A stretch of DNA of 52,591 nt from an uncultured Ectothiorhodospiraceae bacterium (GCA_947258515.1 CAMYIO010000040.1:1-52591); one strand, 5' to 3'. Counted from the first letter of the stretch, positions 11,698 to 40,131 are shown. Notes: generated by a model not told the origin, from the letters alone. Program-made: numbers and translations.

Positions 11698-11781
11698 TGA
11701 ACCATCAGGAGCAGCTGACCTGACTCGCTGATATCTGTTGCGGATTTTGCACCTATACGCTACTCACAATAAGGAGTGAGC

Positions 11782-17401: not shown

Positions 17402-17478
17402 TCTGACAATCTCTTTCAATTGCCAGCGACAATGTTCCGGACGTTGATGATTCAGTTTTGAAGGAACAGGATACAAAG

Positions 17479-22344: not shown

Positions 22345-23715
22345 CTAGTTGTTGTCGGGCCTCTGAGAGAGTCGCTGCTGCCATTCTAGGATGTCGCGTT
22401 TATGGAAATATTTGTCGAATCGGCCCAGTTTATCAACATAGCTCTTGTTCAATGTATTCATTAGTCCATAGACACGAAGGTCGTGACCAAAATGATCTCC
22501 CGATGTCAGAAGGTAATAGTAGATCCTTCGTTTCCAGTCCGCGGTCAGGTCAGCATCAGTTTTCCGGATCCAAGTGTTATCGTTAAGGAGATGATGAATA
22601 TGATCTACCACCGTCTTGGTTGACTTGCCATCCGGTGAATTGCACCACTTGCGGAGAAATTGATCCCTGGCTTTCTGAAGGTCTTCAGGAATTGAGGCTC
22701 CGGCAAGATAGTTAGAAACCTTCTCAATCAGCTCGTCGGAAGACCTTACCATGTCACTGCCAGAAGCAAACTCTGGAGAGAAATAATATTCATCCGGATT
22801 AAGCTGCATCTCGATTGTCGGCTTGCCAAGAAGCCAGGATTCGATTGCTGTTGTGCAGGAACGATTCAATTCTATATCGGTTGCATTCAGAACATCCCAG
22901 CTATACTCATGAGCGATAATTCTCACCCTGCTGGCAGAAGAGGATAAATCCTTTCTGAGGAGGTCCTTATAAAACTGGTGGTCTTCTGTGGGGTGGAGTT
23001 TTAGAGCAAAATTGACTTCAGGAAAGTTCCGCACGAGCGAGACAAACGCATTGAGGAAAAGCTCTCTGGATATGTAATCCCTGTTGGGAACATCACCAAG
23101 GTCGCCGTACAATTCCTCAAATACTTTGTCTCGGCCATATTTTTTTGCATTTCTTAAATAGAAGTCTTGATTGGATGTGTGGAATGATGCTTGAGTGAAA
23201 TTGGTGGCGAAAGTAACCAATGGGTAACGGGAATCCAGTTCGTACTTTTTAAGGAAAGCAGACTTGGTTAAAAGGATTGCCTTTAATGGTTCTTTATAGA
23301 AATCAAAGCGAGGGACGCCTGCCACGACTATTTTGTCATCAGCCAAGGTCTGATTCTCCTGCAGAATATCAGCCATTGGCTGGTTCCAAACGAAATGGAG
23401 ATCCACTCCGCTCAAATCGCAATCTTTCCCCCCCATATGATTCCTCATTCCATCCAATGTTGGCATGCCTTCAGTAGGCAAGATGACAACACGAATATTT
23501 TGGCTTTGAAGATATTTGGCAAACTCTTGCTTTTTGGGAGGTATAAGGTGATTCATTAATACCAGATCTGGTTTTATGGTTGAAATATAGTTTTTCTCCA
23601 GATTGTTTCTTGCATAATGAACCACGTGGCCAAGTTGCTCAAGCAACAGTCCAGCATAAACATGGCCAGCCAAGTCTCGCCACTTGTGATCAACCGCTAT
23701 AAGAATTTTAGCCAT
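22345..23715 (-). CDS. Second surface carbohydrate biosynthesis protein (putative GT-B-like transferase)
   Basis: A 456-residue relative of the protein at 17479-18876. The start at ATG 23715 gives MAKILIAVDHKWRDLAGHVY; the frame is open to 23763 but the extra 16 residues fit no family. Similar landmarks are VDLHFVWNQPMADILQENQ, VVAGVPRFDFYKEP, LVTFATNFTQASF, VNFALKLHPTEDHQFYKDLL (K-L-H-P donor motif) and IELNRSCTTAIESWLLGKPT (N-x-S-C-T-T-x-x-E). The role is probably assembly of a surface polysaccharide. It is divergent in orientation from the neuB-neuA operon. The sequence is AT-rich like the rest of the island. Confidence 0.73.
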   Translation of the reverse strand: MAKILIAVDHKWRDLAGHVYAGLLLEQLGHVVHYARNNLEKNYISTIKPDLVLMNHLIPPKKQEFAKYLQSQNIRVVILPTEGMPTLDGMRNHMGGKDCDLSGVDLHFVWNQPMADILQENQTLADDKIVVAGVPRFDFYKEPLKAILLTKSAFLKKYELDSRYPLVTFATNFTQASFHTSNQDFYLRNAKKYGRDKVFEELYGDLGDVPNRDYISRELFLNAFVSLVRNFPEVNFALKLHPTEDHQFYKDLLRKDLSSSASRVRIIAHEYSWDVLNATDIELNRSCTTAIESWLLGKPTIEMQLNPDEYYFSPEFASGSDMVRSSDELIEKVSNYLAGASIPEDLQKARDQFLRKWCNSPDGKSTKTVVDHIHHLLNDNTWIRKTDADLTADWKRRIYYYLLTSGDHFGHDLRVYGLMNTLNKSYVDKLGRFDKYFHKRDILEWQQRLSQRPDNN

Positions 23716-24032
23716 TTCGACAATCCTATCAGTAGTCTGCTCTGAGGCAATTACTTTTAACAAGTGAACCTATTGCAAAAGTATATTCAGCCTTTTGAAA
23801 ATACTTGGTGAATTTGTATAAAAGTCGAGCTTCAAAGGTACTTGAGAGTACAGAATTCTCACCCGGAAGCGATGCGGAAAACATGCAGTCTATCAAGGTC
23901 TTGTCGTTTGGCAATGAATTTTATGTAACATAAAAACCGTGGATATCGGCTCTTTCATCACCTATAACCGTATGTTTCATTATTTCTGACTACGGCTCAT
24001 CAACATGTAATGCATAATCGTCCACACTACCG
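23716..24032. other. AT-rich spacer between the glycan island and the sphingolipid locus
   Basis: 317 bp without a convincing gene. It must hold the promoter of the minus-strand gene ending at 22345. Composition changes sharply at about 24.03 kb, where the GC-rich ABC exporter begins. That step marks the edge of the more AT-rich island. No att-like repeat or integrase was found. Confidence 0.5.
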
Positions 24033-25766
24033 CTAGCCAGCAACATCCTTTACCAGCAGCGCACGTCCATCCTGCAACCGGTAGGCCCGCTCGGCGGCGT
24101 CCAGCAGGGTGGGTTGGTGCGAGATGGCCAGGATCGTATGCGCGCCGCGCAATTTGTGCAGGGTCTCGCAAATCGCCTTTTCACCCTGCGGGTCAAGCGC
24201 CGAGGTTGCCTCGTCCAGTATCAGCAACCGCGGCCGGTGCACCAGGGCACGTGCAATCATGATCCGCTGCCTCTGGCCGCCGGACAGTTTACCGCCGCGT
24301 TCACCGACAATGTCATGGATGCCCTCGGGCAGAGCCTCCACGAAGACCCAGGCACCCGCTTCCTTGAGGGCCGAAATGACATCGGCTTCACTGATAACGG
24401 GGTCACCCAGCGCCACATTGTTGAGTACTGAATCATGCAGCAAAACGGTTTCCTGTGGCACGTAACCGATGGTGCGCCGCCAGCGGTGCCTGTCGAGTTC
24501 GTTTAGCGGAATATCATCGACCAGCAGTATGCCACTGTCCGGCTGCAACAATCCGATGATCAGGTCGAGGCAGGTGGTCTTGCCCGATCCTGAAGGTCCA
24601 ATAATGGCGGTAAACGAACCGACGGGGATGCTGATATTTATCCGCTCCAGTATCTGTTTATCCTTGTAGGAGAAACTGACATCCTGCAACTCGATACCCT
24701 GTTCGAGTGTTGGTGCACGATCTCCCCCCGGGTCCTCGCGCGCCTCTTCGGCCTTGCTGATAGTCTTCTGGATCGACCAGTAGGCAGACTCGCTGACCGC
24801 CATCTTCTGGTAACTGCGTTGCACCTGGCCGGTCCTCTTCAATATCCTGGAGAGAAGAAATCCCAGCACCATCACCGTTGCAATCGGCAGTTCCCACTTT
24901 ACCAGCGTGACATAGATACCGATCGCCAGCACCAGCGCGAACAGTATTTCCTGTCCGGCTGAAAGCAATTCGGAGCTCACCACCTCGCGGCGCAGTGCCC
25001 GGTTTATATTTTTCGTCTCGGATACCAGCACGGTATCCACCAGGCCTTCCCGTCCCATCGACTTGAGCGGCTTGACCGACAGCAGGGTATCGGCGAGTCG
25101 CGCGATCATCAACTTGGTAAAGCTTGTCTGGCGCTTGCCGGCCTTGCGTGACATCTTCACCAGGCGGTTCAGTGCGACATAGATAAGGGTGCCCATCAGA
25201 ATAGAAAACAGGGCGGCCTGCCACATCAGCATTGTCGCGATAATGACATAGACAAGGGCCTGGATAAGCTGTGATATCAGGGTAGCGCCATGCAGGTAGG
25301 CATTGGCGGCCCTGACCGCCTCGATCGACATGGAATTGGTTAACTGTCCAATCTGTCGATGCAGAAAGTATTCCCAGCGCGATGCCAGCATGGCCCGCAG
25401 CATCGACAGACGCAGGTCAGTGGCGACCTGTGCAACGATGTAGCCAACCCTTTTCTTGGCCAGTAGCACCAGGCCGCCTTTGATTACCGCCCCGATTATG
25501 ATGACCACCAGTAGCATCTCGACACTGGGCGTCAAGCCCAGGGCTTCAATACCCTTGAGCAGTGTATCCCCGACCTCGGAGTCGGAGCCGGCCGCAACTG
25601 CTGCCGTATCATCCCCGGGCGGATCCGTCCTCACCAGGACCCGGTTCAGCAGTGGCAGCAGCGCGGTCAGGCTGATGCCCTCGACCAGACCGGCAACCAG
25701 CAACGCAACCAGCATGATGGTGCTCTGCAGCGGGTAGGCACGGGCAAAGGTCTTCAACAGGTGCAT
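24033..25766 (-). CDS. MsbA-like ABC exporter (permease fused to ATPase)
   Basis: A 577-residue half-transporter that should work as a homodimer in the inner membrane. The N-terminal 330 residues carry about six transmembrane helices, starting with ARAYPLQSTIMLVALLVAGL. The ATPase domain has Walker A GPSGSGKTT near residue 390, the Q-loop GYVPQETVLL, signature LSGGQRQRIMIARAL near 490, Walker B LLILDEATSALD and the H-loop AISHQP. It is of the MsbA/lipid-flippase type. It is the downstream neighbour (66-bp gap) of the serine palmitoyltransferase gene on the same strand, so flipping of a sphingolipid is a reasonable inference. Export of a glycan of the neighbouring island (PglK-like) is the alternative. 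Confidence 0.85.
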   Translation of the reverse strand: MHLLKTFARAYPLQSTIMLVALLVAGLVEGISLTALLPLLNRVLVRTDPPGDDTAAVAAGSDSEVGDTLLKGIEALGLTPSVEMLLVVIIIGAVIKGGLVLLAKKRVGYIVAQVATDLRLSMLRAMLASRWEYFLHRQIGQLTNSMSIEAVRAANAYLHGATLISQLIQALVYVIIATMLMWQAALFSILMGTLIYVALNRLVKMSRKAGKRQTSFTKLMIARLADTLLSVKPLKSMGREGLVDTVLVSETKNINRALRREVVSSELLSAGQEILFALVLAIGIYVTLVKWELPIATVMVLGFLLSRILKRTGQVQRSYQKMAVSESAYWSIQKTISKAEEAREDPGGDRAPTLEQGIELQDVSFSYKDKQILERINISIPVGSFTAIIGPSGSGKTTCLDLIIGLLQPDSGILLVDDIPLNELDRHRWRRTIGYVPQETVLLHDSVLNNVALGDPVISEADVISALKEAGAWVFVEALPEGIHDIVGERGGKLSGGQRQRIMIARALVHRPRLLILDEATSALDPQGEKAICETLHKLRGAHTILAISHQPTLLDAAERAYRLQDGRALLVKDVAG

Positions 25767-25832
25767 GACAGTAACCTAGTCTGACGGCAGGCGGGCGGTT
25801 TAACCGGGGATACAGAATATCCTGGCGCGTGC

Positions 25833-27035
25833 TCAGGCGTGCGCCTGCAGTTTTTCCTTGAAATGCGAAAAGGCGTCCAGCATGGCGTTGATCTGCGCCT
25901 GGCTGTGGGCCGCGCTGAGACTGCAGCGCAGCAGCGGTTTGCCGCCCGGTGTGGCCGGGGGGAGGACCAGATTGACATAGATGCCCTGTGACAGTAACTC
26001 ATTCCATAGTGCGGTTGTCTCGGCAACGGTTGCGGGCAGTCGCACGGCGATCACCGGGCTGATTTCAGGGCCGAGTTCAAAACCCATGGCCGCCAGACCC
26101 TGGTATAGCTGCGTGGCATTGTCCCAGAGTTTTTTGCGCAGTGCGCTGCTGCGGTGGAGGATCTCGAGGGCTTTACGGGTCGAGGCTATCAGCGACGGTG
26201 AAGAGGATGCGGTGAATATATAGGGACGCATGGCATAGCGCACAGTTTCCAGCTCCGGCCAGCGGCTGACGCAGAATCCACCGATAGACCCAAGGCTTTT
26301 GCTGAAGGTGCCGGTAATGAAGTCCACCTCGGCCTCGACTTCGAGCGCTTCAGCGAGCCCCCTGCCTTGCTGGCCGAGAACGCCCAGCGAATGGGCCTCG
26401 TCCACCAGCAAGAAGGCGCCATAGCGGTTCTTCATGTCTACAATCTCGCGTAGCGGCGCGCGGTCACCGAGCATGCTGTAGATCCCTTCCACCACCACCA
26501 GGGTATTCCCGGCACGGTCACCGAGTCGTTGCAGGCGTTTCTCCAGGTCTGCCGGGTTGTTGTGCTGGAAACGGATTACCTGGGCACTACCGAGTCGGGT
26601 GCCATCATAGATACTGGCATGGCAATCGGCATCCAGCAGGATGACATCCTCGGAACCTGTCAGCGTCGAGAGTATCGCCAGGTTCGCGATGTAGCCTGTT
26701 GAAAAGACAATCGCCGCGGGACAGTTGAAAAAGGCCGCCAGTTCATTCTCCAGCGCCACATGCGCGGCATAGCTGCCGTTCGCCATGCGCGAGCCCGTGG
26801 TGCCTGTTCCCTCTTCACTGACTGCCCTGCAGGCAGCTGCAACGCATTCCGGATCGAAGGTGAGTCCCAGATAGTTATTGGTGCCGGCCATGATGACCTT
26901 GCGGCCATTGATGATCGCTTCAGTGGCCGAAACCACGCGCTCTACGACGACATGAAAGGGGTCCACGCCGCTGCCGGCTACCAGCCCGGCACGCGTTTCC
27001 TCGAGGGAACGGAATTTATTGAAAAGGTTTGCCAT
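25833..27035 (-). CDS. spt: Serine palmitoyltransferase (alpha-oxoamine synthase family)
   Basis: PLP enzyme that condenses L-serine with an acyl thioester to give 3-ketosphinganine, the committed step of sphingolipid synthesis. In its 400 residues the PLP-lysine motif reads GTFSKSLGSIGGFCVSRWPE. The G-T-F-S-K and G-G-F-C-V-S forms are those of bacterial serine palmitoyltransferases such as the Sphingomonas enzyme, rather than of KBL, BioF or ALAS. The matching RPYIFTASSSPSLIAS segment, the GTNNYLGLTFDPE N-terminal pattern and DADCHASIYDG (PLP-stacking His) support this. It follows the acyl carrier protein gene by 3 bp, so the acyl donor is probably acyl-ACP. It is expected to be cytoplasmic. 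Confidence 0.9.
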   Translation of the reverse strand: MANLFNKFRSLEETRAGLVAGSGVDPFHVVVERVVSATEAIINGRKVIMAGTNNYLGLTFDPECVAAACRAVSEEGTGTTGSRMANGSYAAHVALENELAAFFNCPAAIVFSTGYIANLAILSTLTGSEDVILLDADCHASIYDGTRLGSAQVIRFQHNNPADLEKRLQRLGDRAGNTLVVVEGIYSMLGDRAPLREIVDMKNRYGAFLLVDEAHSLGVLGQQGRGLAEALEVEAEVDFITGTFSKSLGSIGGFCVSRWPELETVRYAMRPYIFTASSSPSLIASTRKALEILHRSSALRKKLWDNATQLYQGLAAMGFELGPEISPVIAVRLPATVAETTALWNELLSQGIYVNLVLPPATPGGKPLLRCSLSAAHSQAQINAMLDAFSHFKEKLQAHA

Positions 27036-27038
27036 CTA

Positions 27039-27287
27039 TCAGCTGTCTTTCAGCAATTGTTGCAATTGTTCTGCCAAATCACCAAGGCTGTTTACCCTGG
27101 GAAGGATATTCAAGGGCACTGAGATATCGAAATGATCCTCGATCTGCGTCATCAGTTCCATGACCTTCACTGAATCCAGGCCCACTTCGTTGATCAGGCC
27201 GGTCTCTGCACAGAGCTCAATCGGTTCACTGGCGTATGGACGAATCAGCACGTACAGCTGATCAAGGATAGCCTCTTTGCTTTGCAT
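27039..27287 (-). CDS. Dedicated acyl carrier protein
   Basis: An 82-residue acidic carrier protein with the phosphopantetheine site GLDSVKVMEL; Ser39 in G-L-D-S is the attachment residue. It is flanked by a 3-bp gap to the serine palmitoyltransferase and a 105-bp gap to the SDR gene, all on the minus strand. It diverges from housekeeping AcpP in the helix I region (LYVLIRPYASEPIELCAET). The expected job is to receive the acyl chain from the ligase at 28367-30148 and present it to Spt, as AcpR does in Caulobacter. It differs from fatty-acid AcpP, which lies elsewhere in most genomes. Confidence 0.9.
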   Translation of the reverse strand: MQSKEAILDQLYVLIRPYASEPIELCAETGLINEVGLDSVKVMELMTQIEDHFDISVPLNILPRVNSLGDLAEQLQQLLKDS

Positions 27288-27392
27288 CTTTGTCTATCTC
27301 CGTGCTTCTATGGGTGCGGCTGGCCGACATCCAGCATGCACGTTATCGGTCATCGGCGAGATACGCAATAAAATTTTCTGACGTGGCCGGTC

Positions 27393-28340
27393 TCACGCTC
27401 CACGCCCGGGCCCACCCCAGCCCATGGTGCGCTGCAGACCCTCCTGCAGGGAAAATCCCGGCTGCCAGCCGATAGCGGCCGTCAACGCCGTGTTATCCGC
27501 CACCCAGTCGGGATGCCGCAGCTCGCGCACCTTTCCCGGTGTCAGCATGGGAGCATAACCGATCAGTCGTGCAGTGGTGGCATTCATGGCTGCAAGCGAG
27601 CGCAGCAATGCTGCCGGCAAGGGCACCCTGATAATGCGTCTGTCACGCAGCGCCGAGACAACGGCGATGATTTCATCCCAGCTGTAACCTCCGGCCCGGG
27701 TGTCATTCAGTTCATAAATTCCGCTACGGCACTGTCCGGCATCCAGCCACCTGAGTACGGCCGCGCACAGGTCTTCGACATACAGCAATGACACCCGGGC
27801 ACCGGTTTCGCCCAGTACCGGTGCTATGCCACGGCCCATCCACTGAAACAGCGGCAGCATTTCCCGGTCACCCGGCCCGTAAACGGCGGGAGGACGAAAC
27901 GCAACCCACTCCATGTCACCTGCCATGCCGGCCAGGGCCTCTTCACCGAGGTGCTTGCTGGATGCGTAATGGGAGAGCTGCGGCGCACGCGCTGCCAGTG
28001 ACGAGAGCGACAGGAACCTGGGTCTGGGCGACTGCGCGAGTGCCACCCGTACCAGCTGTTTCACACCCTCGACATTGACGGCGTTGAAGTCGGCTGCCGT
28101 GACGCCACGAACGGCGCCGGCACAGTGCACCACGGCATCGGCACCCTGCAGCAAGCAATCCAGGGATGCGCTGTCCTGCAGAGAACCGCTAACGGGTTCT
28201 AGCCCGGCTGACGCGGGGAGTCTATGGGCGGAATGCGGACGAGTCAGTGCTTTTACATGCCACCCGGCGGTCACCAGGTGTTTTGTCAGCATGGTGCCGA
28301 TAAATCCGGTGGCGCCGGTTACAGCAATGGTTCGTGACAT
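27393..28340 (-). CDS. NAD(P)-dependent epimerase/SDR, probable CerR-like ketoreductase
   Basis: A 315-residue extended short-chain dehydrogenase. The nucleotide-binding loop is TGATGFIG at residues 8-15, LSSLAARAP provides the catalytic Ser strand and HYASSKHLGEE gives the Tyr-x3-Lys pair. In the known Caulobacter ceramide cluster a gene annotated as NAD-dependent epimerase (cerR) reduces the 3-keto group of the acylated or free ketosphinganine. The present gene has the same place between the acyl carrier protein and the acyl-activating enzyme. The assignment therefore rests on family plus order. A sugar epimerase is the alternative, but no sugar genes lie in this operon. Confidence 0.78.
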   Translation of the reverse strand: MSRTIAVTGATGFIGTMLTKHLVTAGWHVKALTRPHSAHRLPASAGLEPVSGSLQDSASLDCLLQGADAVVHCAGAVRGVTAADFNAVNVEGVKQLVRVALAQSPRPRFLSLSSLAARAPQLSHYASSKHLGEEALAGMAGDMEWVAFRPPAVYGPGDREMLPLFQWMGRGIAPVLGETGARVSLLYVEDLCAAVLRWLDAGQCRSGIYELNDTRAGGYSWDEIIAVVSALRDRRIIRVPLPAALLRSLAAMNATTARLIGYAPMLTPGKVRELRHPDWVADNTALTAAIGWQPGFSLQEGLQRTMGWGGPGRGA

Positions 28341-28366
28341 GGAGAACCAGCGACGTCTACGCGTTG

Positions 28367-30148
28367 TCAGCCGGCCTGTTTTTGTGACAGGACAGCCGTC
28401 GCTTGCCTCTCTATCTGAACACCAGCCTGGTTTAGCGGGTGAGCGTCGATGTAATTCTGCCTTGCCTTGGAGCGGGACAGCTTGCCCGACGAAGTCCGCG
28501 GCAGCGTGTGTAACGGTGCCAGCTCGATGTGACAGTCGACACCCACCTCGGCATGGATCAGTCCCTGCAGGCGCCTGATCAATTCCGCTCGCTTGTCACT
28601 GTCATTGTCGCGGTACTGGACCACCATCACGGCTACGTCAGCGCCACCCGCACCGGGTACCGCAAATGCCAGTGCATCTCCGGGACGCACATCCGGCTGC
28701 TGCTCCGCAAGCTGCTCCAGATCCTGCGGCCAGATATTGCGGCCGTTGATGATGATCAGGTCCTTGCTGCGCCCCGTGATCATGATGCTATCGTCTACCC
28801 GGTAGCCGATGTCGCCCGTGTTCAGCCAGCCATCCGGCGAGAGCGTTTCGGCGGTGATTTCCGGCTCGTTGAAATAACCCGACATGACACTCGGCGCGCG
28901 CACGTGGATTACACCGATATGGCGTTCCGGCACGACATCACCCGCGGCATTTCTTACCTCCACTTCAAACGCCGACAGCGGCACACCACAGTTCACAAAT
29001 TGACTGAGGCGCTCTTTGACCGCATCCGTCGCCGGTCGTGCATGGTCGAGCAGCGCCAGGTGCTCCGCATCCACATGGTCAACCGACAGCCCGCCATCCA
29101 GCGGTGCAAAACTCACCGCCAGCGAACACTCGGCCATCCCGTAACAGGCAAGAAACGCCTTGCGATCGAAACCGCTCGGGCCCAGGGCCTCGGCAAAGTC
29201 ATACAGAACCTGCGGCCGGATGGTCTCGGCACCGACACCTGCGACTCGCCAGGCGCTCAGGTCAAAGGTCTCGGCCTCACCTTCACGCAATCGCCGGTTG
29301 CACAGTTCATAGCCAAACGGCGGACTGAACGAGATCGTTGCCTTGTTACGTGACATCAGTGACAGCCACTGGCGTGGACGCATTGCAAACTCACGCGTGC
29401 CAAGGTAGTCCACCGACAACTGCGAGGCCAGCGGCGCAAGCACCAGGCCGACCAGGCCCATGTCATGATAGAAGGGCAGCCAGGAGACACAACGGTCCGT
29501 CGTGCGCATGTCCATACCCTCGGTGATGATTCCCGAGAGATTGTTGAGCACGGCACGCTGGGTAATCATTACACCCCGCGGAAAACGGGTGCTGCCCGAG
29601 GTGTATTGCAGATAAGCCAGCTCATCTACCTGCATCGGCGACAGCTCACCCGCCTGCTGAGGCAGGGTGTCATAGGTTGCCGATGTGCCGACAAACGTCA
29701 GCCCCAGCCCCTCGGTTGCATCCGCAAGCAGCTCTGAATAATCCGCCGGTGCAACCGCCAGCGACGCCTGGCAGCCTCGTGTCATTGCCTGTATCTGCGC
29801 AACATACGCCTTGTGGCTGCCGGGGTTGTGGGGAATCGGCAGCGGCACAGGAACCAGGCCCGCGTACTGACAGGCAAAGAAAAAGCGCAGAAAATCGGGA
29901 TGGGTGTCCGCCACGATGACCATACGTGCACCGCGCGCAGCACCGAGGCCGCGCAGGCGTCGTGCCAGTCCCCGTGCCTGCTCTCTCAGCTGTGAATAGG
30001 TGAGCACCGCGTAGAGTTCGCCACGACTGGTATAGAAGTTACATCCTGTTCGCCCCAACGCAGCATAATCAAGGGCCGCTGCAAGATTCGGAAAATCCGC
30101 AGCCCTCAATGGCAGGTTGTTACCGGTTGTTGTTGCTTCCAAGCCCAA
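28367..30148 (-). CDS. Fatty acyl-AMP ligase / acyl-ACP synthetase
   Basis: A 593-residue ANL-superfamily ligase that activates a fatty acid as acyl-AMP and passes it to a carrier protein. The phosphate loop is YLQYTSGSTRFPRGVMIT and the adenylate-binding YGMAECSLAVSF follows. WLNTGDIGYRVDDSIMITGR is the hinge region, and the C-terminal TSSGKLSRSKAR carries the adenylation Lys. The FAAL-type pattern (LPIPHNPGSHK region and the insertion before the C-domain) fits transfer to ACP rather than CoA. The start is TTG at 30148, with AGGAG 7 bases upstream on the minus strand. It probably loads the acyl carrier protein two genes downstream. The Caulobacter counterpart is aasR. Confidence 0.88.
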   Translation of the reverse strand: MGLEATTTGNNLPLRAADFPNLAAALDYAALGRTGCNFYTSRGELYAVLTYSQLREQARGLARRLRGLGAARGARMVIVADTHPDFLRFFFACQYAGLVPVPLPIPHNPGSHKAYVAQIQAMTRGCQASLAVAPADYSELLADATEGLGLTFVGTSATYDTLPQQAGELSPMQVDELAYLQYTSGSTRFPRGVMITQRAVLNNLSGIITEGMDMRTTDRCVSWLPFYHDMGLVGLVLAPLASQLSVDYLGTREFAMRPRQWLSLMSRNKATISFSPPFGYELCNRRLREGEAETFDLSAWRVAGVGAETIRPQVLYDFAEALGPSGFDRKAFLACYGMAECSLAVSFAPLDGGLSVDHVDAEHLALLDHARPATDAVKERLSQFVNCGVPLSAFEVEVRNAAGDVVPERHIGVIHVRAPSVMSGYFNEPEITAETLSPDGWLNTGDIGYRVDDSIMITGRSKDLIIINGRNIWPQDLEQLAEQQPDVRPGDALAFAVPGAGGADVAVMVVQYRDNDSDKRAELIRRLQGLIHAEVGVDCHIELAPLHTLPRTSSGKLSRSKARQNYIDAHPLNQAGVQIERQATAVLSQKQAG

Positions 30149-30835
30149 GAGTCGTCTCCTGTTAACTAGCCGTTATCTACAATCACAATCATCAGTCCCG
30201 GGTTCACCCGCAGGGTTGCAGCGTACCTCGAAATTACACACCCGGGTCCCTGGGCCACGATCTTGTGCCGGGGGACCCACACCCACTACAGGTATCCAGC
30301 AAGTAATTGACCTGTAATAAAATTGGCTGCAAAATCATAACATAGGCAAATACTTATGCATTTTCCAAGATTTACTGACAAATCGCAACCCGCATCTCTA
30401 TGAAATACCTGGCTCGATGAAGATAGGGTTCGGAGTGCAACAGCCTGGTGTCGGTCATTGTGCCAGGCTTGCTGATTGCCACCGAACTTCAGCGACTGTA
30501 AAATTTGAGCCTGGTCACCTTACGCCAACTGTCCAACTCGACGATCCAATGCAGGTCACAGTTTCATACTATACGGACAGGTGATTGTTTTCGCGCCATT
30601 TCACGCCATTAGCTGGTCACCTTGTGCCATTCGGTGTAACAAAGATACCGCAGCAGCAGTGTACGTCTGGCAGCCGTCAGATATCCGCACTATGAGCCTG
30701 TCTCCCGCGCGCTCGGCCAGTGCCGGCCGCGAGGGCCCCGCACCTTCTGCTATGGCGGCATCGATCACTGAAATAATACACTCCGAGGCGAGCGGAGCGC
30801 TCAGCACAGGACTTGCGCTGACTTGCAGGCGACTA
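30149..30835. other. 687-bp spacer upstream of the acyl-AMP ligase
   Basis: No convincing gene is seen. The side next to 30148 is AT-rich (30310-30400) and should hold the promoter of the minus-strand operon. A short direct repeat, CTGGTCACCTT followed by ACGCCA or GTGCCA, occurs at about 30512 and 30613 and may be left from a mobile element. The region includes open frames on both strands, but they lack any family motif and have odd residue composition. Confidence 0.5.
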
Positions 30836-31252
30836 TCAGGGCCAGTCCGCTTTCAATGCAGTGAGGATCTGTGTGTTCTGTTCGGTACTGGTGGCGTTGA
30901 GACTGGCCAGATCCGGGGGGCCGGGCCAGCCAGGGTCAATGAATGTCTGTCCGGAGAATGTCCGCATTTCTTCATATCGCGGAATGACGTGGAAATGCAC
31001 ATCTGGATCAACCATCATCAACATCAGGTAGTTGATCCGGTCATAGTTGAACATGCGGCCAAGCACCCCTTCAATATGGCCGGTGATAGACTGTAATTCG
31101 GCAAAGGCGGCAGCGCTGATCATGGAGAAAGCCGTGCGCGGCTCTTTGCATACAAGTACCAGCGAACCAAGCGTTACCTGCCCGGGACGCAACAATACCG
31201 CCCAGTGATCATAATCCCTGATCAGGGTGGCCGGCGCACCGAATTTTTTCAT
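30836..31252 (-). CDS. HIT-family (histidine triad) protein
   Basis: A histidine-triad nucleotide-binding protein of about 138 residues. The triad is DVHFHVIPRYEE: H-F-H is kept and the third triad position reads I-P rather than His. The start at ATG 31252 (MKKFGAPATLIRDYDHWAVL) matches related proteins; an earlier ATG at 31312 would add 20 residues. HIT proteins hydrolyse or transfer nucleotidyl groups, for example releasing AMP from adenylates. Here it lies between the acyl-AMP ligase and the putative ceramide synthase, so a link to acyl-adenylate or CDP-headgroup chemistry is possible, but no substrate can be read from the sequence. Confidence 0.82.
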   Translation of the reverse strand: MKKFGAPATLIRDYDHWAVLLRPGQVTLGSLVLVCKEPRTAFSMISAAAFAELQSITGHIEGVLGRMFNYDRINYLMLMMVDPDVHFHVIPRYEEMRTFSGQTFIDPGWPGPPDLASLNATSTEQNTQILTALKADWP

Positions 31253-31440
31253 TGTCGCATTCAAGACGATTGCTCCCTGTTTCTGAAAAACCGGTTTGCA
31301 CCATTCCATCATGCCCCGGGGTATGGCGGTAAGCTGCAACCGTGACCTTCTGTTTATTGCTGCCAGATTTTGTATTATGCACGAAATACCAGCATACCCC
31401 GCCACGCAGAGGATGTAATGGCAGATCCGGAGCCCAGAAA

Positions 31441-32595
31441 ATGACCGCCCCCGAAAAGTTTGATCATAACGGCGAACTCGGCATCTTGCCGGTCCTGAAC
31501 GCAAAGGACCTGGAACGTTTCATTCGTGTGCCATGGCCCATCTATGCTGGCGATCCCTGCTGGATACCGCCGCTGTTGCTTGAGCGAAAAGAGCATCTGT
31601 CAGCGAAAAACCCCTATTTCAAACACGCCAGCTGGCAGGCCTGGGTGGCCTTTCGAAATGAAAAACCCGTGGGGCGCATCAGCGCCCAGGTGGACCAGTT
31701 GCGCCTGGAAAGGTATGACGACGCAACCGGCCTGTTCGGCTTTCTCGAGGCAGACGATGATGCGGCTGTTTTCCGGCTACTGCTGGAGACGGCATGCGAC
31801 TGGCTCAGGGAACAGGGAATGAAAAGGGTACAGGGCCCCTTCAGCTTTTCAATCAATGATGAATGCGGCCTGCTGGTGGAGGGCTTCGAAACACCGCCCT
31901 GTTTCATGATGGGACATGCACGACCCTATTATGCCGGCAGGCTGGAGTCGCTTGGTTACAGCAAGGCCATGGATCTGCTCGCCTATCGTCTGGATACCGA
32001 CTTTGTTGTGCCCGCGGCGATGCAGAAATTGACCGCAAAGAGTTCCACACGGATAACTGTCTCGCCCTTGAGGCGTTATCGTCTGCAAGAGGATCTGGTT
32101 GTTTTACGTGAGCTGTTCAATGACGCCTGGGCAGGCAACTGGGGTTTCGTACCCTTCACCCGTGAAGAATTTGATGAGCTGGGGCATAACCTGGTACGAC
32201 TGGTGGATGAGGATTTCATCCAGATCGCTTCGGTCGACGGCAAACCCGCGGCCATGATCGTGGCACTGCCCAACCTGAATGAGGCAGCCCGGGACCTCGA
32301 TGGACGCCTGCTGCCGCTGGGATGGTTGAAACTGTTGTGGCGCGTGAAGCGACACAAGCTGAAAACGGCCCGCGTTACCCTGATGGGTGTGCGCCAGGAA
32401 TACCAAAAGAGCGCGCTGGGACTCGCGCTGGCCTATACAATGATGGACGCTATTCGATTACCGGTGACGTCGCAGGGCATCAACGAGGTAGAGATGTCAT
32501 GGATCCTGGAGGACAATCGCAACATGCGGCATATTCTGGAATCACTTGGCGCCGATCCCTACAAGCGTTACCGGATCTATCAAAAAGAACTCTGA
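31441..32595 (+). CDS. GNAT-fold acyltransferase, candidate bacterial ceramide synthase
   Basis: A 384-residue protein with two GNAT-like halves. Segments such as FIRVPWPIYAGDPCWIPPLL, FGFLEADDDAAVFRLLLETA, GPFSFSINDECGLLVEGF, PPCFMMGHARPYYAGRLESL and NEVEMSWILEDNRNMRHILE are those of the hypothetical GNAT family that includes the Caulobacter ceramide synthase bCerS. That enzyme adds the N-acyl chain to the sphingoid base and is unrelated to eukaryotic ceramide synthase. The ATG at 31441 follows GGAG by about 9 bases. It is divergent from the HIT gene and about 1.3 kb from the acyl-AMP ligase. Family membership is moderately sure; the function comes from context. Confidence 0.72.
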   Translation: MTAPEKFDHNGELGILPVLNAKDLERFIRVPWPIYAGDPCWIPPLLLERKEHLSAKNPYFKHASWQAWVAFRNEKPVGRISAQVDQLRLERYDDATGLFGFLEADDDAAVFRLLLETACDWLREQGMKRVQGPFSFSINDECGLLVEGFETPPCFMMGHARPYYAGRLESLGYSKAMDLLAYRLDTDFVVPAAMQKLTAKSSTRITVSPLRRYRLQEDLVVLRELFNDAWAGNWGFVPFTREEFDELGHNLVRLVDEDFIQIASVDGKPAAMIVALPNLNEAARDLDGRLLPLGWLKLLWRVKRHKLKTARVTLMGVRQEYQKSALGLALAYTMMDAIRLPVTSQGINEVEMSWILEDNRNMRHILESLGADPYKRYRIYQKEL

Positions 32596-32660: not shown

Positions 32661-33482
32661 ATGCACAGCGCACTTCCCGCCACTCCCTTCAGCGCCATCG
32701 TCATGGCGGCCGACCGCAACCCCCATGACCCTGTCGCAAGGGCCGCCGCTGTGGCCTGCAAGGCACTGGCACCGGTCGCTGGCACGCCCATGGTGCTGCG
32801 GGTTCTGAATGCGCTGGGACAGAGCCTGCAGGTTGGACCGCGGTTGTTGTGTGGCCCGCCCAGGCCTCTGCTCGAACAGGACGAGGCGCTCATGTCCGGG
32901 GTCGATGCAGGTGACTACGGCTGGACGGCCAGCAGGGACAGCCCGAGTGCCAGTGCCGCCGCCGCCATGGAGCAGATCCCGGAATCACAACCGGTATTGC
33001 TGACGACCGCCGATCACGCTTTATTGAGCAGCCAGATTATCGATCATTTTTGCGGACAGGCACGCACTGCCGACTTTGACCTGGTGGTTGCGCTGGCTGC
33101 GCATGAACGGGTTGCGGCAGCCTATCCTGACATGCACAGGACGCAGCTGCGCTTCAGCGACCGGGACTACTGCAGCTGTAACCTGTTTGCCTTCATGACG
33201 CCGCGCGCACGCAGCATTACCGCCTTGTGGCGCAAGGTGGAGAGTCAGCGCAAGCATCCCTGGCGGGTGATCGGTATCCTGGGTTGGTGGCCGGTGTTCA
33301 AATACCTGCTCGGACGCCTGTCCCTGCAAGAGGCGCTTGCACGACTATCCGGCAGACTCGGGATGAAGATCGGCGCTGTCATCATGCCTTATGCCGATGC
33401 GGCCGTGGATGTGGACAGCGAGAATGACTGGCGCCTGGTACAGCAGATCGTGGCGCAAAAGAAAAAGCCCCGGGCAAACTGA
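32661..33482 (+). CDS. MobA-like nucleotidyltransferase, putative
   Basis: A 273-residue protein with an NTP-transferase type A fold: FSAIVMAADRNPHDP at the start in place of the classic L-A-A-G-x-G-x-R loop, ALAPVAGTPMVLRVLNAL, a metal-site strand VLLTTADHALLSSQIIDHF, and VDVDSENDWRLVQQIV at the end. The Gly-rich loop is not canonical, so nucleotide binding may be unusual. It lies 65 bp after the putative ceramide synthase gene on the same strand, and AGGAG at 32641-32645 lies 15 bases before its ATG. It could activate a headgroup precursor as a CDP derivative. It converges on the next nucleotidyltransferase. Confidence 0.68.
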   Translation: MHSALPATPFSAIVMAADRNPHDPVARAAAVACKALAPVAGTPMVLRVLNALGQSLQVGPRLLCGPPRPLLEQDEALMSGVDAGDYGWTASRDSPSASAAAAMEQIPESQPVLLTTADHALLSSQIIDHFCGQARTADFDLVVALAAHERVAAAYPDMHRTQLRFSDRDYCSCNLFAFMTPRARSITALWRKVESQRKHPWRVIGILGWWPVFKYLLGRLSLQEALARLSGRLGMKIGAVIMPYADAAVDVDSENDWRLVQQIVAQKKKPRAN

Positions 33483-33520: not shown

Positions 33521-34276
33521 CTAAATAGCCTGGACGTCGCCTGCTTCACCGGCCAGCCAGCCGGCGGCCATCTTCAACGCCTTGTCCAGGTCAACAGGAT
33601 AGTCGAGTTCACCCCATTGCAGGCCATTGATCGACTGGCTCCAGACGTGTCCCCCGGATGCCAGCTGGTCGATAACGGACAGATACCACTGCTGCAGGGC
33701 TACCGGTGTGTACATGGTCTGCGCCACCGCATCCCTGAACAGTTCGCCGCCCTGTTCGCGGAATAACAGTATGCCAATGGATTCGCCGTCGACACTGTCG
33801 GCGTCAAGATCCTTGCCTATTCTCAGCAGGCGATTGCCATCCAGGCAAACCTTCATATCGTCGGAGTCATAACGCGATTTGTGGTCCCTGGCCAGGGTGA
33901 TGGGCCTGAGCGGTGAGCCCAGCAGGCGCTTCACGATAGCGGGCTCAAACAGGGTGTCACCGTTGAGCAGTAAAAAATCCCCGCTCATCGCTTCCCTGGC
34001 CATCCACACGGTGGCGAGGTTGTCGGCCACATCGAAAAACGGGTTATAGATCGTCCTGATGCGCTTCGCACCGTAACGCTGGTCCAGTAGCGACTGAACA
34101 CGCACGGCGCCATAACCGACCACAACCGTGATATGGTTGACACCATTCTCGAGCAGGTGATCGATCTGCCACTCGACAACGGTGCGACCCTCAATATCAA
34201 GCAGGCACTTAGGAATTTCGGCTGTCATCGGTAACAACCTTCTCCCATGCCCGGCACTCAGTATGATTGCTTTCAC
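33521..34276 (-). CDS. NTP-transferase, probable cytidylyltransferase for a headgroup precursor
   Basis: A 251-residue sugar-/choline-phosphate nucleotidyltransferase. The nucleotide loop is ILSAGHGRRLLPMTAEIPKC, followed by DIEGRTVVEWQIDHLLENGV and the metal-binding LLLNGDTLFEPA. LicC-like and phosphoglycerate-type cytidylyltransferases share this arrangement. In Caulobacter a cytidylyltransferase (CpgD) supplies CDP-glycerate for ceramide phosphoglycerate, so a similar job is possible beside the CDP-alcohol phosphotransferase at 37867. Its strand is opposite to the neighbouring lptF-like gene, 363 bp away. The nucleotide and acceptor are inferred. Confidence 0.75.
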   Translation of the reverse strand: MKAIILSAGHGRRLLPMTAEIPKCLLDIEGRTVVEWQIDHLLENGVNHITVVVGYGAVRVQSLLDQRYGAKRIRTIYNPFFDVADNLATVWMAREAMSGDFLLLNGDTLFEPAIVKRLLGSPLRPITLARDHKSRYDSDDMKVCLDGNRLLRIGKDLDADSVDGESIGILLFREQGGELFRDAVAQTMYTPVALQQWYLSVIDQLASGGHVWSQSINGLQWGELDYPVDLDKALKMAAGWLAGEAGDVQAI

Positions 34277-34639: not shown

Positions 34640-35725
34640 TTGATTATCAACCGCTATCTAATCCGTGAAATGGCCATGCCGCTGGTTACCGTGACCGCGA
34701 TACTGGTTTTCATCTTTATGAGCTATAACGCGGTTCGCTACACGGCGGACGCGGCAGCCGGCCTGTTGCCGGCCAGTACGGTCATCTACCTGACGCTGTT
34801 AAGGTCGCTTATCGCCATAGAAGTGCTGTTGCCTGTCGCGCTTTATCTATCCGTCATACTGGGTATGGGGCGACTCTACAGCGATAACGAGATGGTGGTG
34901 CTGCAGGCCACCGGTATCAGTGAGCTGTGGGTGGTGCGCAGTGTGCTGTGGCTGTCGCTGGCGGTGGCGATTGTTGTCGCCGGACTGTCACTGGCAGTAC
35001 GCCCCTGGGCGTACCAGCAAAGCTATCTGCTGAAGGCGGAGGCGGAGGCGGATTTCAACCTGAACAAGCTGGAAGCGGGTCAGTTTTATTCAGCGGAAGA
35101 CTCCGGTACCGTGATCTTCGTGGAAGGCATCAACAAACGACAGAAGCGGCTCGAACAGGTGTATTTTTTCAGGATCAAGGAGCGCAAGGTAGACATCATT
35201 AATGCACGACAGGCCTGGCAGCCGGTGACAGACCCGTTTGCAGCCCCCGAGCTGCAATTCCTTGAGGGTACCCAATATCAGGTCGATCTCGACGGCACCC
35301 TTGATCTGACCCTGAAATTCAAGGAGTTGTCAGTGCTGCTCAAGCCTGATAACGAGTATCTCGAACGCTACAGGAGCAAGGCTGCAGGCACACTGCAGCT
35401 TGTCGGTTCGAGCGAGCCTGACGATCTTGCCGAGTTCCAGTGGCGACTGACCACACCCGTTACCACACTGCTGCTTGGTGTTCTGGGTGTGCCACTGAGT
35501 CGCAGCGCACCGCGCAGTGGACGTTATTCAAGGACCATCGTCGCCGCACTGGTGTTCGCCTTGTTTTACGGCTTGAATGTGATGGCAAAGACCTGGGTCG
35601 AGCAGGGTGTGGTCGGCATCATCCCCGGCGTCTGGTGGCCACACGTACTGCTTGGTTTGCTGACCGTGGTGCTGCTATTGTGGCCGCTATTGCGGTCAGT
35701 CTTGCGGCCAGGAATCAGGTCATGA
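34640..35725 (+). CDS. lptF: LptF-like permease
   Basis: A 361-residue LptF/LptG-family membrane protein. It starts at TTG 34640 (M-I-I-N-R-Y-L-I-R-E, the usual LptF opening). Transmembrane segments lie near residues 10-30, 50-75, 95-120, 270-290, 300-320 and 330-350, with a periplasmic beta-jellyroll between (VIFVEGINKRQKRLEQVYFF, LEGTQYQVDLDGT). In E. coli LptF and LptG form the transmembrane part of the LptB2FG ABC machine that pulls lipopolysaccharide out of the inner membrane. Here the pair sits inside a sphingolipid locus rather than beside pepA, so it may be a paralogue used for another lipid. No LptB gene is nearby. The stop overlaps the lptG start (ATGA). Confidence 0.82.
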   Translation: MIINRYLIREMAMPLVTVTAILVFIFMSYNAVRYTADAAAGLLPASTVIYLTLLRSLIAIEVLLPVALYLSVILGMGRLYSDNEMVVLQATGISELWVVRSVLWLSLAVAIVVAGLSLAVRPWAYQQSYLLKAEAEADFNLNKLEAGQFYSAEDSGTVIFVEGINKRQKRLEQVYFFRIKERKVDIINARQAWQPVTDPFAAPELQFLEGTQYQVDLDGTLDLTLKFKELSVLLKPDNEYLERYRSKAAGTLQLVGSSEPDDLAEFQWRLTTPVTTLLLGVLGVPLSRSAPRSGRYSRTIVAALVFALFYGLNVMAKTWVEQGVVGIIPGVWWPHVLLGLLTVVLLLWPLLRSVLRPGIRS

Positions 35726-36789
35726 TCCTGGATCGCTATATTGGGCAAATACTGGCACGCAGTATCCTGCTGGTGGCGCTCATTCTGGTGCCCTTGTTCA
35801 TGTTGCTGGATCTGGTGCAGCAGCTGGATGATGTTGGGGTCGGAAACTACGGGCTGTCTGATGCATTTGTCTACGAAGCCTTCATGATGCCGGGCTATTT
35901 GTTGAGCCTGGCGCCGTTTATTGCCCTGCTGGGGACCAGTGTCGCACTTGGCGGGTTGGCGCATACCAAGGAGCTGACCGCCATGCGGGCCTGCGGCATC
36001 TCAATCGCACGCATCGGACTGGCGACGCTCAGGTCCGGTGTCCTGTTTATGTTTATGGTCATCATTATCATGGAGTGGATTGCGCCGCCGCTGCATCAGC
36101 AGGCGCTGAAACGGCAGTCGCTGGCGCTGTCCGGGGTCGATGTCCTGATCGAGGAACATGGCTTCTGGATCCACAAGGACAATCGCTTCGTCAATGTTCG
36201 CAACATATACCAGGGGCATACGCCGGCAGATATTCACGTCTTTGAGTTTGATCCGGAAAATCACCAGCTCAGCCGCTATCTGCACGCGGACCGGGCCGAG
36301 ACGAACAACCGCAAGCAGTGGTTATACAAGGATCTGCTTGTAAAGAACTACCAGCAGGGGTCTGTCGAAACCCGGCATGAAGCGGGATTGGCCCGGGAGT
36401 CTTACCTCACGGAGAAACAGTTGCAGGTCCTGGAACTGCCCATCAACAGCCTGCCGCCATCAGACCTGTATCAGTATCTCAATTACCTGCGTGCCAGCGG
36501 GCAGATAACGGAACGGTTCGAGCTGGTGTTCTGGCAGAAAGTCACGCTGCCAATAATTGTCGTCGTCATGATGTTGTGCTCGTTTCCCTTTGTGTTCGGC
36601 TCCATGCGAGTCTCCACTATGGGAAAGAGGATCGTTCTGGCCACCATCACCGGGCTCTCCTTTCAGTTGATCAGCCAGTTACTGGCCAACCTCGGTCTCA
36701 TGCTGAACCTGAGTCCCCTGCTGATGGTGTTGCTGCCGATTGTTGCCATCGTGTTTGTTGGCGCTGTATCGATGCGGCGCGCTTTCTAG
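35722..36789 (+). CDS. lptG: LptG-like permease, 3' end at an insertion-sequence remnant
   Basis: A 355-residue partner of the LptF-like protein. The ATG at 35722 overlaps the upstream stop by ATGA. It begins ILDRYIGQILARSILLVALI and shares the LptG layout: N-terminal helices, a jellyroll domain (GFWIHKDNRFVNVRNIYQGH), then C-terminal helices with VTLPIIVVVMMLCSFPFVFG and LLANLGLMLN. The TAG stop at 36787-36789 is part of the CTAG that borders the insertion-sequence end at 36790, so a few terminal residues may have been lost, though the family pattern looks complete to the last helix. The frame is also open upstream, inside lptF, which is not meaningful. Confidence 0.82.
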   Translation: MILDRYIGQILARSILLVALILVPLFMLLDLVQQLDDVGVGNYGLSDAFVYEAFMMPGYLLSLAPFIALLGTSVALGGLAHTKELTAMRACGISIARIGLATLRSGVLFMFMVIIIMEWIAPPLHQQALKRQSLALSGVDVLIEEHGFWIHKDNRFVNVRNIYQGHTPADIHVFEFDPENHQLSRYLHADRAETNNRKQWLYKDLLVKNYQQGSVETRHEAGLARESYLTEKQLQVLELPINSLPPSDLYQYLNYLRASGQITERFELVFWQKVTLPIIVVVMMLCSFPFVFGSMRVSTMGKRIVLATITGLSFQLISQLLANLGLMLNLSPLLMVLLPIVAIVFVGAVSMRRAF

Positions 36790-36882
36790 GAGCCTGTCGG
36801 ACTTAGGTGATCGTAGCGAGCATGATGGGAGAACGAGTACAAATGGTCACGATTTCGAGGCGCATAGTGGGCCTACGCAACG
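36790..36882 (+). mobile_element. Solo insertion-sequence end, 93 bp
   Basis: From GAGCCTGTCGGACTTAGGTG the sequence matches the element start at 52444 with one mismatch (GAGTAC against GAGAAC) and stops matching after GCAACG at 36882. The element's other end and its transposase are absent, so it is a decayed or deletion-trimmed insertion. It is bordered on the left by CTAG, as are the other copies. It supplies the stop region of lptG on one side and the last codons of the phosphodiesterase gene on the other. Confidence 0.85.
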
Positions 36883-37767
36883 CGTGCGGCTTACCCGGCA
36901 GAGATTGTAGCGCGCCCTGCGCCCGGGCTTGTGTCCTATCGCAGAAGCCGAGGGCACGCCAATCACCGGTGCATGGCCGGCTGCTGTGTCGAGCCTGCCC
37001 AGGGTTGCACGATGAGCGTGTCCGTGCAGAACCAGTTCCACGCCGTGTCGTTCAAGGGTATGACGCAGGGCACTGCTATCCGTGAGGCGCTTGCGCCATC
37101 CCAGGGTTTCGGCCAGTGGTGGATGATGAATGAGCAATGCCCTGAAGAGTCGGCGTTCACCGGTCTCCGCCAGGATCCTGCCCAGGGCCTGCAACTGGGT
37201 ATTCCCCAGGCGACCCGTGGCGAGCAAGGGTGCCGATGGCCGCGCCGACGACAGGCCGATAAAGGCGATGTGGTCACGGATACGCAGACTGGGAAACAGG
37301 TCGGCAGGCGCAGCTGCCGGGACATCCGATGCGAGGTAAGGCAACCAGTGGGCAAAGGTCTCTTCCCAGGGCGACCTGGCATAGGTTTCGTGATTGCCGG
37401 GTATGACGGTGAACTGTTCGGGTGGGCCAAGACCGGAAAGCCAGCCGGCGACTTCCTGAAACTCGTCCGGCAAGCCGAGATGCGTCAGGTCACCGGTGAT
37501 CACGGTGTGTCGCGGCCGGCAGTGCTTGAGGTCGCTTACCAGTGCGGCCAGCACGTCGGCGCGGTGTTCGTCACGGCGGTGAGACCTCCATGACAAATAG
37601 CCGAGCAGCCTTTTATTCAGCAGGTCACGGCGCCTGACGCCCTCCAGCGTGGAGAGATGGGGATCCGATATATGGGCGAACAGATAGCCTTCTGTATCAC
37701 ACCCTGCGACCTGTTCATTGGGCTTGCCCTCGGCCGGGGAGGAGTCGGCTGACTTTACGATACTCAC
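36847..37767 (-). CDS. Calcineurin-like metallophosphoesterase with replaced C-terminus
   Basis: A 306-residue protein with all metallophosphoesterase blocks: FAHISDPHLS, VITGDLTHLG, IPGNHET (H in G-N-H-E), ALLIHHPPLAE and VLHGHAHRATL. Two metal ions are expected in the active site. The start is GTG at 37767. The family includes UDP-2,3-diacylglucosamine and cyclic-nucleotide phosphodiesterases, so the substrate is open; in this locus it could trim a phosphate from a lipid headgroup or precursor. The final residues (R-T-R-C-V-G-P-L-C-A-S-K-S) are read from the insertion-sequence remnant at 36790-36882, so the original end is lost. The metal sites are untouched. Confidence 0.82.
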   Translation of the reverse strand: MSIVKSADSSPAEGKPNEQVAGCDTEGYLFAHISDPHLSTLEGVRRRDLLNKRLLGYLSWRSHRRDEHRADVLAALVSDLKHCRPRHTVITGDLTHLGLPDEFQEVAGWLSGLGPPEQFTVIPGNHETYARSPWEETFAHWLPYLASDVPAAAPADLFPSLRIRDHIAFIGLSSARPSAPLLATGRLGNTQLQALGRILAETGERRLFRALLIHHPPLAETLGWRKRLTDSSALRHTLERHGVELVLHGHAHRATLGRLDTAAGHAPVIGVPSASAIGHKPGRRARYNLCRVSRTRCVGPLCASKS

Positions 37768-39096: not shown

Positions 39097-39168
39097 GTTG
39101 CAGTTTGCCGGCCACATGAACGGCACCTGCAGGAGACGAGGTCAGCGTAACCCTTGTCCGACTCCGCT

Positions 39169-40131
39169 ATGAGCAGCGAGCACTCGTTGCAGCCGTTGAC
39201 AATGCTGCTTGCTGAAAGGACGTCACTGACCTGCAGCCGTGAACTGCTGGCGCTGCGCGATGCACTGCTGCAGCGTTACAGCGAATCCGTCGCTGCCATG
39301 CTGTTCTATGGCTCCAGCCTGCGCAGTGGCGATGCCCTGGATGGGCTGGTCGACCTGTACCTGGTGGTCGACGATTACCGCAAGGCCTATGGCAAATCGC
39401 TCCCCGCGCTTTTCAACAGGCTGCTGCCACCCAATGTCTATTACCTCGAGGTGGCGGTCAACGGGCAACGGGTACGCGCCAAGTATGCCGTCATCTCCCT
39501 GCGGGACCTGGAGCGCGGTACCTCCATGAAATGGTTCCATTCCTACCTGTGGGGGCGCTTCTCACAACCCTGCGGATTGCTCTACAGCCGCGACAGTGAG
39601 ACCGGCCGACGGGTACACTGGGCACTTGCGCAGGCACTGCTGACCTTCCTCACGCGGGTGCTGCCCGCACTGCCGGAACGGCTGGATTACGCTGCAATCT
39701 GGCAACAGGGACTGGCGCTCAGCTACCGTGCTGAATTGCGTGCGGAGAAGCCGGAGCGTGCCATTCATCTCTATGAAGCCTGGCAGGAACATTACCGTGC
39801 GGTCACCTCCCTGGCGATGAATGCAGTGCCGTTCGAGGTAAAGCACGAGCAGGGTGCATCATCGATGCACTATGTTGTCAGCATTCCACGGCACACCCGC
39901 CTGCTGGGCCGTGCAGGCTGGTGGCTGCGCCGCTTGCAGGGCAAGCTGCTGTCGCTGCTGAGACTGATGAAGGCGACCTTTACCTTCCAGGGCGGCATGG
40001 ATTACATCGCCTGGAAACTGGAACGTCATACCGGTGTTCACATCGAGGTGACCCCGAAGATGCGCCGTCATCCGCTGCTTTACAGCTGGGGGCTGGTGTG
40101 GCGACTGTACCGTCGTGGGGTATTCCGTTAG
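39169..40131 (+). CDS. Tam41-like nucleotidyltransferase, putative
   Basis: A protein of about 320 residues. Its N-terminal half shows MLFYGSSLRSGDALDGLVDL, the Y-G-S-S...D motif of nucleotidyltransferases such as mitochondrial Tam41, which makes CDP-diacylglycerol. RAKYAVISLRDLERGTSMKW and FHSYLWGRFSQPCGLLYSRD also match that family's middle section. The C-terminal third is basic with hydrophobic stretches. It follows the CDP-alcohol phosphotransferase by 72 bp on the same strand. Production of a CDP-lipid is possible. The start is uncertain: ATG at 39169 or TTG at 39154 are both in frame and neither has a good Shine-Dalgarno. Confidence 0.66.
   Translation: MSSEHSLQPLTMLLAERTSLTCSRELLALRDALLQRYSESVAAMLFYGSSLRSGDALDGLVDLYLVVDDYRKAYGKSLPALFNRLLPPNVYYLEVAVNGQRVRAKYAVISLRDLERGTSMKWFHSYLWGRFSQPCGLLYSRDSETGRRVHWALAQALLTFLTRVLPALPERLDYAAIWQQGLALSYRAELRAEKPERAIHLYEAWQEHYRAVTSLAMNAVPFEVKHEQGASSMHYVVSIPRHTRLLGRAGWWLRRLQGKLLSLLRLMKATFTFQGGMDYIAWKLERHTGVHIEVTPKMRRHPLLYSWGLVWRLYRRGVFR

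Follow-up and report, generated by a model that had tools for sequence, protein, structure and literature searches.

Which sphingolipid would an uncultured gammaproteobacterium make, and with which genes? The question is raised by a stretch of 52,591 nucleotides from an uncultured Ectothiorhodospiraceae bacterium (GCA_947258515.1 CAMYIO010000040.1:1-52591), hereafter the window, which is an entire contig (G000:C40) of a draft genome of 3.59 Mb and 97.9% completeness. An earlier note on this DNA had placed a ceramide biosynthesis cluster at positions 24033-32595, where the genes for serine palmitoyltransferase (Spt), a dedicated acyl carrier protein (AcpR), an SDR of the CerR kind, an acyl-AMP ligase (AasR) and a candidate GNAT-fold ceramide synthase (bCerS) lie close together. 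This sphingolipid gene cluster is genuine: all five core genes are clustered and intact, with no disrupted open reading frame (ORF) and every catalytic motif present. The limits proposed for it had to be redrawn, since the first 1.7 kb of that interval (24033-25766) encode an ABC exporter and no ceramide gene, and the functional unit reaches about 41.8 kb. The label ceramide likewise describes the core and leaves out head-group, export and probable hydroxylation genes, as well as the lack of a ceramide kinase. Taken together, the gene content makes it probable (about 85%) that the window carries a nearly complete sphingolipid island of the Caulobacter type, including head-group, export and hydroxylation roles.

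We compared 80 named spt loci from Nitrospirota, Desulfobacterota/'Deltaproteobacteria', Acidobacteriota, and beta- and gammaproteobacteria, and clustered their neighbouring genes; the genomes compared were draft assemblies. The core gene order of the window is shared with dozens of these loci from several phyla, and because of this recurrence it is not the product of chance. Gammaproteobacterial clusters of this kind are not new, since those of E. coli BL21(DE3) (PMC9386255), A. vinelandii, and P. luteola (PMC11324152) have been published, and the suggestion that such loci are less studied was overstated.

Core ceramide synthesis genes

The spt gene (25833-27035, minus strand) encodes a protein that scored 617.9 bits against the Spt equivalog NF047599 (cut-off 500) and failed both the BioF model (328, cut-off 426) and the Kbl model (316, cut-off 460). 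Bacterial Spts (2x8u and 2jg2) ranked first in the PDB, at 424 and 404 bits, followed by Kbl (237), cysteate acyltransferase (214), and BioF (165). The pyridoxal phosphate lysine K246 and residues H139, D212, H215, and R370 align with 2jg2. In a 50-row tree, in which the outgroup branches were long, the window protein grouped with Spts and away from E. coli BioF, Kbl, and the BioF-like protein of its own genome. Identities as BioF/Kbl or CqsA were ruled out by the scores and the tree. A genome of the same genus (G022, loci L020/L081) carries a different Spt, which groups with those of Halieaceae and Thiogranum; therefore, two Spt lineages exist within one genus.

The other core genes surround spt in the expected families. 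The acyl carrier protein gene acpR (27039-27287, minus strand; PF00550, PP-binding, with a DSV serine) is separated from spt by 3 bp. It is followed by cerR (27393-28340, minus strand), an epimerase-type SDR (PF01370, 88 bits; motifs GATGFIG and YASSK) that is 48% identical to the SDR of the P. luteola cluster and 46% to that of E. coli BL21. We regard it as CerR-type on the basis of its epimerase family and an orthologue at the same position in 57 loci. A signal peptide is not obvious in this SDR; Caulobacter CerR has been reported to be periplasmic (PMC11087976). The product of aasR (28367-30148, minus strand) scored 790 bits against the fatty acyl-AMP ligase model NF006624 (cut-off 600), and in the PDB it came closest to 3pbk, a fatty acyl-adenylate ligase (554 bits).

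The bcerS gene lies on the plus strand in an ORF that opens at 31342 and ends at 32595, with the true start probably at 31441. It was assigned as a tandem-GNAT bacterial ceramide synthase by alignment, by an AlphaFold2 model (pLDDT 85.4), and by matches to tandem GNATs in the PDB. Along its whole length the protein shares about 50% identity with YghO of E. coli BL21 and about 52% with the P. luteola GNAT, both of which come from loci published as holding the five-gene set. Judged by sequence, the predicted five-gene ceramide set of the window is complete, with Spt, dedicated AcpR and AasR, a CerR-type SDR, and a GNAT-fold bCerS. The earlier note had named two outcomes that would speak against ceramide synthesis, namely an oxoamine synthase grouping with BioF or Kbl and a GNAT protein outside the bCerS clade. 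Neither was found, and ceramide synthesis is strongly supported.

Between bcerS and aasR lies a gene for a HIT-family protein (30836-31312, minus strand, starting at 31312 or 31252), whose orthologue at locus L022 matches PF01230. It belongs to a distinct HIT subfamily, marked by the motif LMLMMVDP[DH]VHFHxxPRY, that 19 loci have conserved in this position between bCerS and AasR; the locus of the sister genome G013 gave no match. This protein might hydrolyze acyl-AMP or a nucleotide by-product.

Predicted head-group and transport genes

Downstream of bcerS, the window continues with genes known from the CPG/CPG2 pathway of Caulobacter, in which CpgD has been proven to synthesize CDP-glycerate and CpgB to act as a ceramide kinase (PMC12275187, PMC10331486). 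The enzymes CpgC, CpgA, CpgD, and CofC-like are all present, and CpgB is not. Specifically, a CofC/MobA-like nucleotidyltransferase of the CC_1153 type (32661-33482, plus strand; PF12804), recurrent in 40 loci, is followed by a cpgD-type CTP:phosphoglycerate cytidylyltransferase (33521-34276, minus strand; PF12804/PF00483; motifs GHGRRLLPMTAEIPK and NGD) with 60% identity to its P. luteola orthologue. Further along are a cpgA-type CDP-alcohol phosphotransferase (37867-39096, plus strand; PF01066), assigned by alignment and a complete CDP-OH-P motif, and a cpgC-type Tam41-like nucleotidyltransferase (39154-40131, plus strand; PF09139), which was detected in 38 of the 49 genomes searched for it. 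A calcineurin-like phosphoesterase (36847-37767, minus strand; PF00149) precedes cpgA; it occurs in 13 loci and is likened to CC_1158 by its matching position.

Two sets of transport genes accompany these enzymes. A second LptF (LptF2; 34640-35725, plus strand; PF03739) and a second LptG (LptG2; 35722-36789, plus strand) score above their cut-offs (TIGR04407, 307.9 bits; TIGR04408, 310 bits) and overlap by 4 bp (ATGA). They are distinct from the lipopolysaccharide (LPS) pair, as a canonical LptFG pair, about 30% identical to them, is encoded on another contig (G000:C16). Because CPG2 can stand in for LPS in Caulobacter, the possibility of an LPS-free organism was weighed; the presence of LpxC and the canonical LptFG rules it out. 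The ABC exporter (24033-25766, minus strand; permease and ATPase, PF00664/PF00005) lies directly downstream of spt with intact Walker A/B and LSGGQ motifs, and is a candidate sphingolipid flippase. It scores below all exporter equivalog cut-offs, MsbA included, and an exporter of this kind follows spt in about 40 loci.

A missing ceramide kinase

In nearly all other clusters the site between cpgA and cpgC holds cpgB (PF00781), whereas in the window this site is a gap of 57 bp (39097-39153). At other loci, the kinase family was recognized from a PF00781 protein encoded either next to cpgC or in the space separating cpgC from cpgA; 39 genomes were searched for it. Both cpgC and the kinase occur in 33 genomes, and the two genes are within 300 bp of each other in 31 of these. 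Throughout the window genome, however, a PF00781 search at E <= 0.001 and a kinase-profile search at E <= 1 both came back empty.

An assembly error was ruled out because the junction is contiguous and was seen again in two other genomes. The sister genome G013 (93% complete; locus L106) has the same kinase-less cpgA-cpgC junction. Likewise, in betaproteobacterium AG20 (G040, loci L048/L120) cpgA and cpgC are adjacent, with no kinase match in the genome and an OlsC-like gene beside cpgC. This bacterium differs from the window in having an Spt of another clade, on a distant branch; therefore, its kinase loss was independent. Genomes of the same family as the window (G006, G007, and G009) retain the kinase. 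The absence thus looks real and seems to have arisen at least twice, and the lack of a kinase alongside cpgA, cpgC, and cpgD looks new.

An OlsC-like hydroxylase linked to cpgC

The unit ends with an OlsC/LpxO-family gene (41069-41824, plus strand; PF05118), a candidate ceramide N-acyl 2-hydroxylase. Its product reaches neither the OlsC equivalog (246 bits, cut-off 450) nor the LpxO equivalog (119 bits, cut-off 500), which places it in a distinct predicted subfamily inside PF05118. Relatives with at least 43% identity lie no more than 1.3 kb from cpgC in 13 genomes (G000, G013, G007, G009, G027, G032, G040, G059, G062, G064, G065, G066, and G068) and within 10 kb of it in G052, whereas the LpxO-like paralogues of the same genomes (at most 36% identity) never adjoin cpgC. 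The OlsC-like gene was found in none of the Nitrospirota genomes tested, and Nitrospirota clusters have, instead, an unrelated fatty-acid hydroxylase of PF04116, whose gene lies between those of bCerS and HIT. This adjacency, together with the unrelated hydroxylase of Nitrospirota, suggests that the OlsC-like enzyme is a dedicated ceramide hydroxylase. In Caulobacter, the amide-linked chain is reportedly hydroxylated by CC_0202, an unlinked DesA-type protein (PMC11324152), and we predict the OlsC-like enzyme to be a third, non-homologous solution to chain hydroxylation. Its linkage to cpgC looks new; a literature search for LpxO-type hydroxylases linked to sphingolipid genes returned nothing relevant within the papers covered.

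Comparison with known systems

The window shares most of its genes with the Caulobacter crescentus region CC_1168-CC_1152 (PMC11324152), including the AasR-CerR-AcpR-Spt order, bCerS, CofC-like, cpgD, cpgA, cpgC, a phosphoesterase at the corresponding position, LptF2/LptG2, and an exporter. It differs in being without cpgB and in having the linked HIT protein and OlsC-like hydroxylase. Of the 17 Caulobacter genes, at least 13 are reported to have contiguous counterparts in P. luteola and in A. vinelandii (PMC11324152). The P. luteola locus (L093, genome G068) has the order of the window mirrored, running cpgA, LptG2, LptF2, cpgD, CofC-like, bCerS, HIT, AasR, SDR, AcpR, Spt, and ABC, and also has an OlsC-like gene beside cpgC. 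On the other hand, P. luteola keeps the kinase (G068:C8:69925-70869), has no phosphoesterase at the locus, and carries two OlsC-like copies. The E. coli BL21(DE3) spt locus (ECD_RS14825-14855; PMC9386255) has in common with the window yghO (bCerS), the fatty acyl-AMP ligase, SDR, ACP, spt, LptG2, and LptF2, but lacks cpgA, cpgC, and cpgD and has other flanking genes.

Several points weigh against a full equivalence with the Caulobacter system and against a kinase-free route. Orthology with Caulobacter was derived through the P. luteola and E. coli BL21 sequences, and the comparison of Caulobacter-type transport was confined to LptF2/LptG2. Draft assemblies leave some room for a kinase that is unassembled or strongly diverged elsewhere. 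Furthermore, in G011 (L107), of the same genus, cpgC directly follows LptG2 and cpgA, cpgD, and the phosphoesterase are not at the locus, so that a bypass through CpgA cannot be genus-wide.

Proposed pathway and alternative products

Reading the activities of orthologues onto these genes, we propose that AasR would activate a free fatty acid and load it onto AcpR, after which Spt would join acyl-AcpR and serine to give 3-ketosphinganine. N-acylation by bCerS and reduction of the keto group by the CerR-type SDR would then yield (dihydro)ceramide. The 1-hydroxyl is predicted to gain a phosphoglycerate-type head group, for which CpgD would supply CDP-glycerate, with CpgA and CpgC acting downstream and the CofC-like protein and phosphoesterase as helpers. 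The OlsC-like enzyme would probably hydroxylate the amide-linked acyl chain at position 2, the ABC exporter would flip the lipid, and LptF2G2 would move it toward the outer membrane. Since no CpgB/DAGK_cat kinase was found, we hypothesize that either CpgA moves phosphoglycerate from CDP-glycerate straight to ceramide or another kinase makes ceramide-1-phosphate; the substrate of the hydroxylase is likewise hypothetical.

Substitution of the first enzyme of a standard CPG route by DgkA is possible, if tentative. A DAGK_prokar gene is present in the window genome (G000:C57:3627-3932), in G013, and in G011, and ceramide is a substrate of E. coli DgkA in vitro; however, G009 and G006, relatives that keep the kinase, have DgkA as well, which makes its presence uninformative. 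More doubtful is that cpgA, cpgC, and cpgD are remnants decaying after kinase loss, the product being ceramide only or a non-phosphorylated (e.g., sulfated or glycosylated) sphingolipid. Such decay would agree with the genome-wide lack of the kinase, with the further loss of cpg genes in G011, and with the sulfotransferases and glycan genes that border the cluster both here and in relatives, but the three genes have intact motifs, share 76-86% identity with those of the sister genome, and keep the same order. The window sulfotransferase itself (40145-40949, minus strand; PF13469) is broken, being frameshifted with an internal deletion and about 38 codons shorter than the intact 310-aa sister copy (L106:6828-7760). 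Because of this, and because the G040 locus showed no sulfotransferase, sulfation in place of phosphorylation is speculation. Sulfotransferases near spt or cpgC were also observed in G009, G011, G027, L025, L041, L052, L054, L085, L092, and L101.

That the OlsC-like enzyme is a mere neighbour of the cluster appears unlikely. OlsC and LpxO act on ornithine lipids and lipid A, and lipid A genes are present (LpxC); yet the neighbour explanation would leave the repeated adjacency to cpgC unaccounted for, and an OlsB-type gene had no match in G013 or G009. Highly improbable, finally, is a different aminoketone lipid (1-deoxy, sulfono, or autoinducer type) as the joint product of the alpha-oxoamine synthase, the dedicated ACP, and the fatty acyl-AMP ligase. 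At the position where the Spts of S. paucimobilis and 2x8u have an arginine (yvnmaRppatp), the window protein has Leu358, and serine binding may therefore differ in detail. Nevertheless, the E. coli BL21 Spt, whose product is 3-oxo-sphinganine (PMC9386255), also has leucine at this position, and besides the Spt equivalog score, PDB Spts stand far above CqsA and cysteate acyltransferase.

A low-GC nonulosonate cassette and distant neighbours

Between 15.0 and 25.0 kb the GC content drops from about 0.58 to about 0.49. Genes for a NeuB-like synthase, a CMP-nonulosonate cytidylyltransferase/HAD phosphatase fusion, and a TIGR04396 surface-carbohydrate protein (15325-18876, plus strand), all recurrent spt neighbours in other phyla, lie here. 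The phosphatase part of the fusion is a KdsC/Kdn-9-phosphatase-like domain. Surface glycosyltransferases are encoded alongside, one of the BFO_1060 family (22345-23763, minus strand; NF046086, 313 bits, cut-off 200; GC 0.49 versus about 0.58). The cassette is variable, as the sister genome G013 holds other genes at this position (L108:2666-9508). The TIGR04396 protein had no PDB sequence match, and a role as a KpsS-like Kdo/Kdn transferase received no specific support, its model resembling GT-B epimerases, TagF, and capsule synthases only in general.

In 12 of the 80 other loci, a NeuB relative is encoded no more than 10 kb from spt, with gene orders that vary among phyla. For about 30 NeuB copies in 50 spt-bearing genomes of about 4 Mb, we estimate a chance expectation of about 0.15 so close to spt, although the count is inflated by shared ancestry, since Nitrospirota supply most cases, and NeuB was the reason for picking a few of the 50 genomes. 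Literature searches for nonulosonic acid linked to sphingolipid genes and for Nitrospira sphingolipid genes returned nothing relevant within the papers covered. A bacterial counterpart of gangliosides, in which kinase-free phosphoglycerate sphingolipids formed by direct CDP-glycerate transfer would combine OlsC-family N-acyl hydroxylation and nonulosonic acid on the same lipid in several phyla, is improbable. Relatives of a protein encoded at 11776-12756 (plus strand) adjoin aasR in Desulfobacterota (L047, L073, L075, and L083) and lie near bCerS in L025; here the gene is 12 kb away.

Implications

How CpgC and CpgA work has yet to be settled for Caulobacter (PMC12275187). Kinase-less clusters that keep cpgA, cpgC, and cpgD are natural test cases of whether the pathway must pass through ceramide-1-phosphate. 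The OlsC-like gene, in turn, is a specific candidate for ceramide 2-hydroxylation, a modification that in Caulobacter is made by an unrelated enzyme and governs polymyxin sensitivity (PMC11324152).

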